NCBI GenBank assembly: GCA_019218415.1
Contig: JAHUUL010000002.1
Span: 186,001 to 250,000 of the forward strand
Direction: 5' to 3'
Source of the DNA: Dermabacteraceae bacterium TAE3-ERU27
GTDB taxonomy: Bacteria > Actinomycetota > Actinomycetes > Actinomycetales > Dermabacteraceae
DNA: 64,000 bases
Every line of letters begins with the position of its first letter. The first letter of the stretch is position 1. The position numbers and the translations under genes were made by a program. Positions 32,399 through 37,689 of the stretch are shown piece after piece. The notes below the pieces were generated by a model. The model was not told the origin of the DNA. It worked only from the letters and a program-made list of their open reading frames with translations, and made no database searches.

Positions 32399-33336
32399 TG
32401 TTTTTCCAGGCAATCGGCGGTATGTGGGGCGAGCACGTGTACTGCCTGCGGCACCACCTGCACGGTGAGCGGCAGCAGGCAACGAGGCTCGCCGTCTCCG
32501 TGGGCACGCAGCAGGGTGTTATCGCGCAGCGCTACGCTGACGCTTTTGACGCGGCGAACCCTGAACGCCGGGTGCGTTACGTGACTGCCGCGGTAAACCT
32601 TTGGCAGCATCGAGAGCAGGCGTACCCGCCCCAGCCCGGAAACGCTGGCGACCTCAAGTACTCCGTCACGCATGTTGGCCTGCGGCACCAGGTTCATGCC
32701 TCCCCCGAAGAAGGGGGCATTGACGACGCTCAGCAGGGAAGCGTCTACCTCTTCGGGCTCGCCGCCGTCGAAGCTAAGTAGATAGGGCAGATCGCGGAAG
32801 CGGCGGATTTCTTGCGCCGCGGCGATTGCGTAGCGGGAGCCACTACCCTTGCGGCCGGAGTTTGCGCGGGCGGTGACGAGCGCATCAAACCCCAGGCTGA
32901 CGCTGCCGAGGGCCAGTGAGCTGTAGGGGTTCGCCCCGTCGGAGCTAATCTCCATCGCGTCTATCGCGAGCGGCGGCAACGATAGCGATTCCAGCATCAC
33001 CCGGATCGCCTCATCGGGAGAGGCGAGCGGGAGTCCGAGGCTGCGCGCCTGGTCGTTTCCGGTCCCGGCGGGAACTATGCCCAGCCTGACGTCGGTTCCG
33101 GCGACTATCTCCGCGCCGAGGCAAACGGTTCCGTCCCCGCCCACCACGATGAGCGCGGAAAGATCCTCCAGCACGGAAAGCGCCCTAGCCCGCGCAGTCT
33201 TGGCGTTAGGACCGGTTACATCAACAACGGAAAGCCCAGCGAGCCGCAGCAGATTCGCCACGTGCCCGCTGAGCCTCATCGCTCCCCCGCCGGCGGCGGA
33301 GGGATTAACCAGCAGACCGACGCGGAGTCTAATCAC
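32395..33336 (-). CDS. Diacylglycerol/lipid kinase family protein
   Basis: 313 residues with the DAGK catalytic motif V-V-G-G-D-G-T-V (~65-72), P-A-G-T-G-N-D-Q-A-R-S-L-G-L (~92-105) and a C-terminal beta domain ending before L-R-A-H-G-D-G-E-P. It is of the YegS/DgkB type and probably phosphorylates diacylglycerol or a related lipid, recycling it to phosphatidic acid. It overlaps tatC by 8 bp and helY by 4 bp, so it sits in the middle of the tatA-tatC-dagK-helY-lnt string. Confidence 0.88.
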   Translation of the reverse strand: MIRLRVGLLVNPSAAGGGAMRLSGHVANLLRLAGLSVVDVTGPNAKTARARALSVLEDLSALIVVGGDGTVCLGAEIVAGTDVRLGIVPAGTGNDQARSLGLPLASPDEAIRVMLESLSLPPLAIDAMEISSDGANPYSSLALGSVSLGFDALVTARANSGRKGSGSRYAIAAAQEIRRFRDLPYLLSFDGGEPEEVDASLLSVVNAPFFGGGMNLVPQANMRDGVLEVASVSGLGRVRLLSMLPKVYRGSHVTHPAFRVRRVKSVSVALRDNTLLRAHGDGEPRCLLPLTVQVVPQAVHVLAPHTADCLEKQ

Positions 33337-34183
33337 GGCTGATGTCTGACGGCGCGGAGATGTCCTCTACCTCGCCGATATCGCTCACAACGTCCGAGTT
33401 GAGCATGGCTTCGAGGCGGGCATCGCGCTTCTTATCGTTACGGATCGATATGCCCACGGCGATGAAGTAGAAACCGCAGATCGGCATCGCCATGAAGATC
33501 ATGGTGAACGGGTCGGGCGTCGGCACCATAATCGCCGTGAACAGGAAGATCAGGAACACCACCCAGCGCCACGCCTTCAGCATGGTGCGTCCACGCAGCA
33601 CGCCGAGCATGTTGAGCGCCACCAGGAACACCGGCAGGGTGAAGGCAATGCCGAACACCAGCACCGTGCGGATAAACAGGTTCATGTAGGAACCGAAATC
33701 GACGATGTTGGTGAAGTTTTCCGGCGTAAAGCTCATGAACAGAGGCACCGCCTTGCTCATGGCGTAGTAACCGGCGGCGCATCCCATGAAGAAAAGGGGC
33801 ACAGCCGCGCCCATGAAGCCGAGCGCGTACTTACGTTCGTTCTTCTTCAGGCCGGGAGTGATGAAGCGCCAGGCCTCCCACAGTATTACTGGGGATGCCG
33901 CGATCAGCCCGAAGTAGGCAGACATGCGCAGCTTGATATCAAGCGACGTACCTACCCCGGCAAAGTTGGGCTGAGCGTTAAGGTTCAGCTCTTTGCGGGC
34001 AACATCAAACGGTGCCGCGATGGTCTGCAAAACCTGGTCAGAGAAGAACCAACCCACGATGGTGGCTAGCAAAACGGCCACGGCGCAGATCAACAGGCGG
34101 TTACGTGCCTCGAGCAAATGCTCGCCCAGGGTCATTCGCCCTTCCGGGTCCCTGGGCGGGCGCTTCTTCTTCAGGATCGCCAC
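33329..34183 (-). CDS. tatC: Sec-independent protein translocase subunit TatC
   Basis: 284 residues with six membrane helices. The N-terminal R-M-T-L-G-E-H-L-L-E-A-R-N-R-L is the conserved cytoplasmic signal-recognition segment, and F-I-T-P-G-L-K-K-N-E-R-K marks the loop after helix 2. TatC recognises the twin-arginine leader of folded substrates; three genes in this window (7521, 8456-9232, 60051) encode such leaders. The GTG start at 34183 lies 34 bp after tatA. The C-terminal tail (~40 residues) is acidic. Confidence 0.95.
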   Translation of the reverse strand: MAILKKKRPPRDPEGRMTLGEHLLEARNRLLICAVAVLLATIVGWFFSDQVLQTIAAPFDVARKELNLNAQPNFAGVGTSLDIKLRMSAYFGLIAASPVILWEAWRFITPGLKKNERKYALGFMGAAVPLFFMGCAAGYYAMSKAVPLFMSFTPENFTNIVDFGSYMNLFIRTVLVFGIAFTLPVFLVALNMLGVLRGRTMLKAWRWVVFLIFLFTAIMVPTPDPFTMIFMAMPICGFYFIAVGISIRNDKKRDARLEAMLNSDVVSDIGEVEDISAPSDISRD

Positions 34184-34217: not shown

Positions 34218-34499
34218 TTAGTCGCGGCGGTAACGATCCTCAGCCGCGTCACGGAGGGTGTCTACCGGCTCTGCCGGCTTCACCTTGCGGGCCGCGCGGT
34301 GATCGTATTCGCGCTCATCGTCGTCCTCGTCCTTGTCCTGGCCGATGCCGGACTCGCGCTTGAGTTCGTCAACCTCGGACTTGAAGATGCGCATGGACTT
34401 GCCGAGGTTGCGTGCCAGGTGCGGCAGCTTACCCGCGCCGAACAGCAGAACAACCAGGACAACCATAACTACCCAGTGCCAGGGCTTGAGTGCACCCAT
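34218..34499 (-). CDS. tatA: Sec-independent protein translocase subunit TatA
   Basis: 93 residues: one N-terminal helix ([14 protein letters not shown]), the F-G-A-G-K-L-P hinge, the amphipathic helix [15 protein letters not shown], and a charged tail with D-K-D-E-D-D-D-E. TatA oligomers form the passage for folded proteins. It directly precedes tatC; no tatB is visible. It is downstream of the pafBC locus, with 65 bp between. Confidence 0.94.
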
Positions 34500-34564: not shown

Positions 34565-35593
34565 TTAGTCGCTCAATGCCGAAAACCGTGCATTAGCGAT
34601 GTCACGTATCACCGCGCGCAGCCGCGGCGGAGACACCGCCTCGGCCTCACCGTCGGCCTCGAAGCAGGCCTCGATAAGCGCCGCCGGAACGGGGTTTGTG
34701 ACCACGGCGATACTATCGCCCTCGGCGGTGACTCCCGCAAGCCTGCCGCCAAAAGCCTCCGCGAACCACCACGCCCCCGGCGCTAAACGCAGCGTCACCT
34801 CATCCAGATCTAGTTGGGCGACCGCCCGCGCTCCGGCCTCCCAGCGGGAGCCGTCGCAAGCCAGACGCAGTTCTTGCAGTTCATCCGCGCATTTAGCGCA
34901 AGCGATGATGCGGTCCAGGCGGAACCTGCGCTCTTCCCGGTTCTCGTGGCAGTAGGCGCGCAGGTAAAGCCTGCCCCGGGAGATGAGCAGTTGCAGCGGG
35001 GTCACCGGGCGCAGGCGGGGAGTCGCCTGCGCGGCCCCCGCAAAGAGCAGGGTGAGTTCTTCGCCGCGGGAAATGGCTTCGTTTATGAGCGGGGCGAGCG
35101 AGCCTTCCTCCGGCGGGGAGGTTTCGCGGCCAGCGGAAAAAGCCGCCTCCCCGCCTTCGCTCAGCGCGCCGGTTCCCAGCAGCGCCATCAGCCCGAGCGC
35201 GAGCTGCTGATCAGCGGGTAATAGGTTCGGCAGCAGGTAGCCGAGCGCTTCCCCGAGGGCGCGGGCCTCGACATCGGTGAAGGCAATCACCTGAGAGAAT
35301 GCACCGACGTTGGCCACCTGCGCCACGCCGCCCTCCCAGGACGCCTCCACCAGGTCCTCGAAACCGTCCGGCGTGCGCTGTCCACACATGTAGAGGGTCG
35401 CTAAATGTTTCTCTACCTGTTCCCGGCTGAGCTGAAAACGCTCCGCCAGGTGCGCCACCTCGACTCGCGGATTGGCGTGCACGTAGGCGGCGAGAGAGGC
35501 CATCAGGGTGACGTTTTCTCCCCCGCCCGGCCGTATCCTGCGCAGCGGCGCGGCGGGTACCTCGCCGTATTCGGGTACCTCGCCGTCCCCCCC
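34565..35593 (-). CDS. pafC: PafC-like WYL-domain half of a PafBC-type regulator (frame-shifted from the PafB half)
   Basis: In this frame the recognisable protein begins near M-A-S-L-A-A-Y-V (possible ATG at 35503; 312 residues to the end). It has a helix-turn-helix (V-A-H-L-A-E-R-F-Q-L-S-R-E-Q-V-E-K-H-L), a WYL domain with the sequence R-G-R-L-Y-L-R-A-Y-C and R-R-F-R-L-D-R-I, and a C-terminal WCX-like domain. The frame upstream of 35503 continues in coding style (G-E-V-P-E-Y-G-E-V-P-A-A-P-L-R-R) back to the C7 run at 35587-35593, beyond which the PafB frame takes over. PafBC is the single-strand-DNA-responsive activator of the LexA-independent DNA-damage response in mycobacteria. See the companion PafB entry. 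Confidence 0.8.
   Translation of the reverse strand, partial: GGDGEVPEYGEVPAAPLRRIRPGGGENVTLMASLAAYVHANPRVEVAHLAERFQLSREQVEKHLATLYMCGQRTPDGFEDLVEASWEGGVAQVANVGAFSQVIAFTDVEARALGEALGYLLPNLLPADQQLALGLMALLGTGALSEGGEAAFSAGRETSPPEEGSLAPLINEAISRGEELTLLFAGAAQATPRLRPVTPLQLLISRGRLYLRAYCHENREERRFRLDRIIACAKCADELQELRLACDGSRWEAGARAVAQLDLDEVTLRLAPGAWWFAEAFGGRLAGVTAEGDSIAVVTNPVPAALIEACFEADGEAEAVSPPRLRAVIRDIANARFSALSD
35554..35593 (-). repeat. 15-bp direct repeat plus seven-base homopolymer at the PafB/PafC junction
   Basis: CGGGTACCTCGCCGT occurs at 35554-35568 and again at 35572-35586 (period 18 bp), immediately followed by CCCCCCC at 35587-35593. On the coding strand this is G7 followed by two G-E-V-P units. 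The site lies exactly where the reading frame must change to join PafB with PafC. Confidence 0.9.
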
Positions 35594-36512
35594 GGTGCAG
35601 CGCGGCGATCCGGGCATAGTTTTCCCGGGCCTTCGCAGCCCAGTCTGTGGGAGCCACCAGATCGCACCAGAGCGGGTTTGCCAACGCCACGGCAAGCGCG
35701 TCCCCGTAGCTAAGCGTTAGCGAAAAACGTTCGCGCGCGGGGCCTACCCCCGCCAGTTCCCGTTCGTGCAGCAACTTGCCGGGAGCGGCCAGAAACTCCA
35801 CCTCGCGTCGCTCCCCGCCCTTTCCCGCGCGATATGCGCGCAGCGCCTGCGCAATATCCTGCCCGGCGAGGCGTTCCTCGCGGGCGTCCCCCTTCACCTT
35901 GGGGCTGGAAACGATGCGGCTGAGGCGGAAAAGCCTCTTCTCCCCCGCCTGTCTGTCGTAGCCGAGCAGATACCAGCGCCCCTCCACGGGGGCCACCTGC
36001 CAGGGCTCAACCAGGCGGGTCTTTGCGCCGCCGCTGCCGGGGCGGCGATAGGAGAATTCGACAGTCTGCGCCTGGGCCGCTGCCGCCAGCAGCAACGCCA
36101 CGTCCGGCGGCTGGTTTTCGTCGGCCACCCGGTAGCGTTCGTTGCTTTCGCGCGGCCCCAGCGCCGCCAGTTTCGCCCGTACCCTGCTGGCCAGAGCGCC
36201 CCTGCCCAGCGTGTCCGCCGCGGCGCGCAGCAGCGGCCATTCGTCCGCGTTCGGCCGCAGGCTATCCGGCCGGGGGGTGACCCGGTAGCGCACCAGGTTT
36301 TCGTCCAGCACGTCTACCAGTTTTTCTATGTTCACGCCGCACTCGTTGAGGGCCTGCTTGTCCCGTTCCAGCGCGCGTTCCCGGCTGGCCGGTTCCCCGC
36401 CGTAGCCGACCATCTCCATCAGCTGCGCCGCGGTGTATCCGCGCCGCGTGCCCGCCAGCGTGAGAAGTAGGTTCGCTAGGCGTTCGATGTCTTTCCTGCC
36501 CGAGTTAGTCAC
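35587..36512 (-). CDS. pafB: PafB-like WYL-domain half of a PafBC-type regulator (runs out of frame at a G7 tract)
   Basis: About 306 residues of authentic PafB: helix-turn-helix (~12-60, R-R-G-Y-T-A-A-Q-L-M-E-M-V-G-Y), WYL domain with R-W-Y-L-L-G-Y-D-R and K-R-L-F-R-L-S-R-I-V, and a terminal W-A-A-K-A-R-E-N-Y-A-R-I-A-A-L-H-R-G-G. After the G7 run the frame contains no stop for 126 codons of non-protein-like sequence (to 35211) while the -1 neighbour frame carries PafC. With six Gs, PafB would read straight into PafC as one protein of 648 residues (34565-36512 minus one base). Fused PafBC proteins exist in some actinobacteria. The GTG start is at 36512; 34 bp separate it from the divergent DUF3866 gene. 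Confidence 0.8.
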
Positions 36513-36546: not shown

Positions 36547-37689
36547 GTGATTTATTGGGAACGCGGACGGGTAAGCGCTGAAGCGGGCGGCTGGCCCGGA
36601 GTGCAGCGGGTGTGGGTGGAAACGCAGCGGGGGCGCGTCAGGGCGCTCAGCTACCTTGCGCTCACCGGACCGGTGCGCGTGGGTGAAACGGTCGCGCTCA
36701 ACTCTTCCGCGCAGGAACGGGGGCTGGGCACCGGGGGCGACTGCATGATCGTCGCCGTGGAGGGCCGCTCCCCCGCAGATAAGCGCGGCACCGGCCACCT
36801 GGTAAAAGCACGTTACACCCCGTGCCAGGTGATGGTGGATGCCGTGGACGACCCCGACTCTCCCCATCACGAAACGATGGAGCGGGCGGATTCATTGACG
36901 GGCATGCCCGTGGTGGTTGCCGATCTACATTCGGCGCTCCCCGCGATCGTGGCAGCTATCCGGCACGCCGCTCCCCGCGCCCGCATCGCCTATCTGATGA
37001 CCGACGGCGCCGCGCTGCCCGCCTGGTATTCCCGCGCGGCCCGCGAGCTGCGCGAACGCGGCGATATCTGCGCCATCGTCACCTGCGGCCAGGCCTACGG
37101 CGGGGACGTGGACGCGGTGACGCTCCACTCGGGCTTGCTGGCGGCCAGGCATGTCAGCGGGGCCGACGTCACGGTTTGCGTGCAGGGGCCGGGAAATCTC
37201 GGCTCCGCCACCCGCTACGGTTTTTCCGGCGTGCAGGTCGCGGAAGCGATCCACGCCTGCACTGCCCTCGGAGGCAGGCCTATCGGTTCGCTGCGGGTTT
37301 CGGGTGCCGACGCCCGCGACAGGCATCTCGGGCTATCGCATCACTGCCTCACCGCGTACGGTCGGCTGTGCCTTGCCGGTGCCGACCTGGTCGAATACCT
37401 GCCCGCCCCGAACGCCTCTCCCGGCGAAAATCAGCCGGAGGCGGAGCCCGCCCCCGGAAACGAGCCGCTCGCGGAGCGTATCTCGCGCGAGGTGTCGGAA
37501 ATGTTGGCGGCGGCGGCGCAGCGCGGGGTGCAGCACCGGCTGGTGCGCATCGCAGACCCGGATCTGCCCGGCGTGCTCGCAGATAGCCCGGTGAAGCTCT
37601 CCACCATGGGGCGCGGCTACGCGCAAGATCCCTACGCGTTCCTTTACGCGGCAGCGGCGGGTATCCACGCCGCAGCGTCGGTTCAGTAG
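36547..37689 (+). CDS. DUF3866 family protein
   Basis: 380 residues of the actinobacterial DUF3866 family. Seen: N-terminal I-Y-W-E-R-G-R-V, A-L-N-S-S-A-Q-E-R-G-L-G-T-G-G, K-A-R-Y-T-P-C-Q, a middle part with A-Y-L-M-T-D-G-A-A-L-P, T-C-G-Q-A-Y-G-G-D-V-D-A-V-T-L-H-S-G, and G-P-G-N-L-G-S-A-T-R-Y-G-F-S-G. The repeated Gly-rich and D-G motifs suggest an enzyme, but no reaction is known. Genes of this family often lie near pafBC and tatA. It is the only plus-strand gene between 26.4 and 53.9 kb and overlaps the PH-domain gene by 7 bp. Confidence 0.82.
   Translation: MIYWERGRVSAEAGGWPGVQRVWVETQRGRVRALSYLALTGPVRVGETVALNSSAQERGLGTGGDCMIVAVEGRSPADKRGTGHLVKARYTPCQVMVDAVDDPDSPHHETMERADSLTGMPVVVADLHSALPAIVAAIRHAAPRARIAYLMTDGAALPAWYSRAARELRERGDICAIVTCGQAYGGDVDAVTLHSGLLAARHVSGADVTVCVQGPGNLGSATRYGFSGVQVAEAIHACTALGGRPIGSLRVSGADARDRHLGLSHHCLTAYGRLCLAGADLVEYLPAPNASPGENQPEAEPAPGNEPLAERISREVSEMLAAAAQRGVQHRLVRIADPDLPGVLADSPVKLSTMGRGYAQDPYAFLYAAAAGIHAAASVQ

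Follow-up and report, generated by a model that had tools for sequence, protein, structure and literature searches.

The locus at positions 34565 to 36512 of the window, that is, of the whole 64,000-nucleotide stretch of Dermabacteraceae bacterium TAE3-ERU27 DNA analysed here, raises the question of whether pafB and pafC are two genes or a single gene taken apart by a one-base change at a run of seven G's, and whether such a run could switch the encoded regulator on and off. The genome that contains the window (G000) was compared with its sister (G001), which is the only other genome of the same genus in the comparison, and with further genomes of the family and the order. The PafB frame starts with a GTG at 36512 on the minus strand and continues for 307 codons up to the G7 tract, past which it stays open for another 126 codons to a stop at 35211, giving 433 aa in total. 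The PafC half lies on the same strand in a different frame, shifted by one, with its end at 34565. The original prediction had put the frame change at this tract and PafC in another frame; both statements hold, with the tract at 35593-35587 on the minus strand. The features of the locus and its direct neighbours are:

35592..36512, minus strand: PafB half of the fused pafBC, 307 codons with a GTG start, carrying a WYL domain (PF13280) and 95% identical to the fused frame of the sister
35587..35593, minus strand: G7 tract in the PafB-PafC linker, site of the frame change, absent in the sister
35211..35591, minus strand: out-of-frame tail of the PafB frame, 126 codons and a stop
35572..35586, minus strand: copy of a 15-bp direct repeat that adjoins the G7 tract, an exact repeat
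35554..35568, minus strand: second copy of the 15-bp direct repeat, with a frame-neutral unit of 18 bp; not exact in the sister
34565..35586, minus strand: PafC half with the linker, the PafC helix-turn-helix, a WYL domain and the C-terminal part (PF19187, PF13280, 6SJ9 match)
35501..35503, minus strand: ATG in frame with PafC that might serve as its own start, upstream duplex of -7.5
36547..37689, plus strand: DUF3866 gene, the divergent neighbour of pafBC
33329..34183, minus strand: tatC, downstream of pafBC

Besides tatC, a diacylglycerol-kinase-like gene and a DEAD/DSHCT helicase gene are found downstream of pafBC. The small gene between pafBC and tatC, with its start near 34499, is presumably tatA-like, as judged by eye.

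Both halves of the locus carry a WYL domain (PF13280) that scores above the Pfam cut-off, and the second half is matched by the PafC helix-turn-helix model PF19187 with 62 bits against a cut-off of 32. The same Pfam search gave no helix-turn-helix match in the PafB half, neither in G000 nor in the protein of the sister. A WCX domain was matched weakly, and in the PafC half alone (E 0.03, 15.1 bits against a cut-off of 23.9). Searches with NCBIfam models matched neither the PafB half nor the PafC half, and the plasmid records that were searched gave no match. The PafC half furthermore matches PDB 6SJ9 (E 2.5e-14), the crystal structure of a naturally fused PafBC from Arthrobacter aurescens, which is described among the class C WYL proteins and in which the halves are joined by a linker of 20 residues (PMC6789036). 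The locus shares with this protein the PafC helix-turn-helix, the two WYL domains and a short linker between the halves (20 aa in 6SJ9), but differs from it in that the window assembly has the halves in different frames.

In the sister, a single PafBC frame spans the site, with an identity to G000 of 95% in the PafB half and 91% in the PafC half. It has exactly 648 residues, the length that had been predicted for the joined product of the window. The homologous halves PafB and PafC are thus present in the same order in both species, with an uninterrupted single frame in G001 but not in G000. The fused arrangement is also the rule in the family, as the PafB and PafC matches share one open frame in 41 of the 47 family genomes, where a gene was counted as fused when both matches had the same contig, the same strand and the same open-frame length. 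Among 198 genomes sampled across the order, 93 gave a hit at the strict threshold, and matches that cross the linker in a single frame are found in other families too. Because one open frame spans both halves in the sister and in 41 of the 47 family genomes, the G000 locus is, as far as sequence comparison goes, a single natural pafBC fusion gene of a known kind that is frameshifted in the assembly. This bears out the central proposal that PafB and PafC form one gene, and separate pafB and pafC genes in close relatives, which would have spoken against it, were seen neither in the sister nor in any other of these 41 genomes.

The six family genomes that were not scored as fused are the window genome itself, G044, G046, G029, G028 and G034. 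Halves in different frames are found in G044 and G046, while pafBC of G029 has two breaks, both located elsewhere. No usable match came from G028 and G034 (completeness 88% and 84%). In G044, which belongs to another genus, the frame changes early in PafC and not at a G7 (G044:C1:491271-493470, L023), and its PafB frame is devoid of a long homopolymer. The G044 locus seems to be another split of the fused gene, separate from that in G000, as far as its frames allow one to tell.

Could the two frames nevertheless be read as two working proteins, with PafB ending at 35211 and PafC starting from its own ATG at 35503? Such an arrangement would agree with the one described for most actinobacteria, in which PafB and PafC are separate proteins (PMC6789036). 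However, PafB would then bear a tail of 126 residues, for which the Pfam search gave no match, and the sister has one frame. The length of the tail is not a sign of coding either, and was rejected as such: of 55 loci from relatives (counted with duplicates, and leaving aside a 56th that lacks a stop in its stretch), 14 would have the shifted frame open for at least 126 codons, and an open tail of this size is therefore nothing special. As to the start site, the duplex upstream of the ATG at 35503 (-7.5 kcal/mol, calculated as pairing with the anti-Shine-Dalgarno sequence) is stronger than that of the GTG start of the gene (-5.0), and 39% of 238 longest-frame starts match this value, but so do 16% of 1357 internal ATGs. 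Moreover, a start at this position would, according to the alignment, cut off the front of the PafC helix-turn-helix, and at least 90% of 36 relatives have Leu in the column of its Met. Initiation of PafC at this ATG is hence possible but weak as a candidate, and the arrangement with two functional proteins is very unlikely.

Among the genomes examined for it, the tract itself is found in the window genome alone. The linker of the sister contains a run of four G's flanked by an A on each side, and the linker varies in length and letters among the relatives. In the open frames of 57 loci from 38 relatives (37 fused genomes and G044, out of 46 relatives), no G/C run longer than 6 was found. Neither a repeat tract at the same place nor a conserved slippery site was seen in these relatives. 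The lack of conservation in the sister and the 38 relatives argues against an inherited switch as well as against a programmed shift, and the suggestion that the tract is an inherited hypermutable element is accordingly not upheld. A programmed ribosomal or transcriptional slippage at the G tract, by which the cell would still obtain the fused protein, had been named as an alternative. A run of seven G's can slip in principle, but the site is not conserved: such a tract is lacking in the sister, which needs no shift, and in the 37 fused relatives examined, and all of them are in frame. This explanation is therefore extremely unlikely.

The 15-bp direct repeat next to the tract was likewise thought to be hypermutable. 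It is exact, with copies at 35554-35568 and 35572-35586, just as predicted, and a spacing of 18, and inexact in the sister. As its unit is 18 bp, loss or gain of the repeat cannot change the frame, and the repeat was rejected as a frame switch.

The frame difference could also reside in the assembly instead of the cell, in which case the strain would have an intact fused pafBC and the tract would have been miscalled in a draft of 37 contigs. Homopolymers are a usual site of sequencing errors, although seven bases are a short run by the standards of common sequencing platforms. When 300 kb of the contig of the window were compared with 280 kb of the sister, only 4 of 243 sister genes corresponded to more than one frame of G000. 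Three of these were aligned: two have an internal break (pafBC and a NUDIX-like gene), and the third differs only before its start. The reverse comparison lists 6 of 241 genes, two of which are possibly broken in the sister. Both directions together yield nine distinct genes or frames, one being common to both lists, of which eight were aligned; the ninth (G000:C12:92697-95151) consists of pieces 1.3 kb apart. By alignment, frames of 755 aa and 673 aa in G000 each correspond to two frames in G001, and the rest of the eight comprises three that differ at or near the start and one doubtful frame of 76 codons. With so few of the compared genes affected, indels are rare in both assemblies, and a generally indel-ridden assembly was not seen in the compared sample.

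The NUDIX-like gene (named by eye; G000:C12:177689-178168) has four A's where the sister has three near the start, which places approximately the first 19 codons in another frame. This second short indel in the same sample favours an error at pafBC, and so does the condition of the PafC half, which is without decay. Against an error, just 4 of the 243 compared genes are in more than one frame, with two seen to be broken inside, and of the eight aligned breaks only that of pafBC coincides with a G/C run of at least 6, despite the 32 six-base runs in conserved genes. Those runs were counted in 241 conserved genes of the 300-kb sample (245,451 bases summed), in which there is a single run of seven, that of pafBC. 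In the 300 kb as a whole, three G or C runs of seven were observed against approximately 51 expected from a dinucleotide model that ignores codon structure, and the one in pafBC is the only one of the three inside a conserved gene. Slipped-strand copying predicts a break at the longest tract inside genes, but a base-calling error would fall there too. Overall, a miscalled tract is an unlikely explanation, albeit one that carries some weight.

The age of the change can be approached through the PafC half, which differs from that of the sister at 33 positions; a crude majority rule over distant relatives assigns 14 of these as derived in G000 and 13 as derived in the sister, with 6 unassigned. 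Strong conservation (at least 90% of 36 relatives) is seen in 69 PafC columns, of which G000 keeps 40 and the sister 41. The PafC half thus bears no trace of decay, and therefore the change is recent, or it is an error, or the gene still works somehow. These three readings, with the change taken as very recent in the first, agree with the lack of decay equally well. The PafB half points the opposite way, with 10 differences derived in G000, 3 in the sister and 1 unassigned, the numbers being small. Pairwise dN/dS is 0.067 for PafB and 0.103 for PafC, compared to a median of 0.050 over 189 genes, among which PafC is in the upper quarter. The uneven split in PafB and the dN/dS of PafC hint at looser constraint but give no date.

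The explanation that best accounts for the locus is that it is a natural pafBC fusion which has recently undergone a one-base frame change at the G7 of the linker, most likely by slipped-strand copying, and to this reading a probability of roughly 0.6 is assigned. A synonymous difference in an Arg codon (CGA in the sister, CGG in G000) suggests that shorter G runs may have been joined into a longer one, which would then have slipped by one base. The cell would in that case produce a PafB half that ends in a meaningless tail, and PafC would be scarce or missing. With the loss of PafC, the PafBC-driven induction of repair genes would be weak or absent, while the LexA branch would stay.

The repair equipment of the lineage is compatible with slippage of this kind. 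MutS (MutS_I) was found in none of the three genomes searched, namely the window genome, the sister and G044, whereas 11 of 14 control genomes were positive, and NucS (NucS_C) is present in all three. The NucS of Mycobacterium smegmatis leaves indels of 1-2 bp unrepaired, which its authors tie to phase variation at homopolymers (PMC11551767). A comparable tract is the G7 of glpK in Mycobacterium tuberculosis, which was one base longer in 45 of the 1,031 isolates of one collection (PMC6667613). In both cases an actinobacterial gene is changed by one base at an internal run of seven G's, but the changes in glpK are repeated and independent in many isolates, while pafBC is changed in one genome and the tract is absent in the relatives examined. 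Given that no MutS was found and that NucS is present, slippage is plausible at pafBC and perhaps reversible, as at glpK, and reversion might occur at a raised rate.

The original prediction went further and proposed that slippage could switch repair genes on and off, which would amount to a tract whose length flips PafBC on and off in the population under selection. Such switching is possible, since no MutS was found, NucS of M. smegmatis is blind to indels of 1-2 bp and the glpK G7 is variable, expanding repeatedly in M. tuberculosis (PMC6667613). The lack of decay in PafC is in line with it as well. The proposal obtains no backing from conservation, however, as the tract is not shared: it is missing in the sister, and no G/C run longer than 6 is present in the 57 loci of the 38 relatives, while the other pafBC breaks in the family (G044 and G029) are at different places. 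Nothing in the analysis shows selection for switching, and a selected phase-variable switch is for these reasons quite unlikely. A literature search for Dermabacteraceae and phase variation found nothing. Equally doubtful is a nascent contingency switch on a LexA-independent DNA-damage regulator in a lineage without detectable MutS, by which a subpopulation would lose and regain the whole regulon.

A length difference in an intragenic poly-G tract does exist in the genus. A G12 tract is located inside a frame of 948 codons for an MmeI-type (type IIG) restriction-methyltransferase (G000:C12:465592-465603, L103:2593-2604), and its equivalent in the sister is a G10 (G001:C6:102460-102469, L118:1961-1970), with the gene split between two frames. 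A further one-base difference between the species is found approximately 35 nt upstream of the tract, and relatives of the protein are found in 16 of the 47 family genomes. To judge from these tracts, the MmeI-type gene is likely a phase-variable defence gene in Dermabacteraceae. A literature search for phase-variable restriction-modification with a poly-G tract in Actinobacteria found nothing. This frame difference at a G tract within the genus makes a switch in pafBC less far-fetched, yet the pafBC tract is shorter (7 compared to 10-12) and not shared. Further poly-G tracts are found at contig ends. Two contig ends of the sister have the same sequence with 15 and 14 G's (L116:2171-2185 and L117:2126-2139), which fits a variable tract or a length that the sequencer could not settle, and the extreme ends of contigs of G000 bear poly-G of 20 (L102:2690-2709) and 10 (L105:2512-2521). 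These long tracts at or near contig ends may reflect breaks of the assembly at G tracts or artefacts of the reads.

Should the frame change be real and reversible, the LexA-independent repair response could be lost and regained by slippage, altering the mutation rate and the survival of stress in a subpopulation. Should it be a recent loss or a miscall, the locus calls for caution in annotation, as two genes would be called where relatives have one.

Potential targets of the regulator were sought by scoring sites against the consensus of LexA-independent promoters quoted in PMC5656591. The strict RecA-NDp motif was not matched in G000 or G001. At recA, a RecA-NDp-like site that agrees in 10 of 12 positions is located 60 nt before the start, with the right spacing, in both species (L100). 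A site of this quality is expected by chance in approximately 1% of random sequences of 300 nt, and six sites as good with a full -10 part are found in the 300-kb sample. The recA site is a candidate LexA-independent promoter. Upstream of it, in both genomes, is a LexA-type box. The pup gene is present in G000 (G000:C12:234341-234490, L099) and also in the sister.
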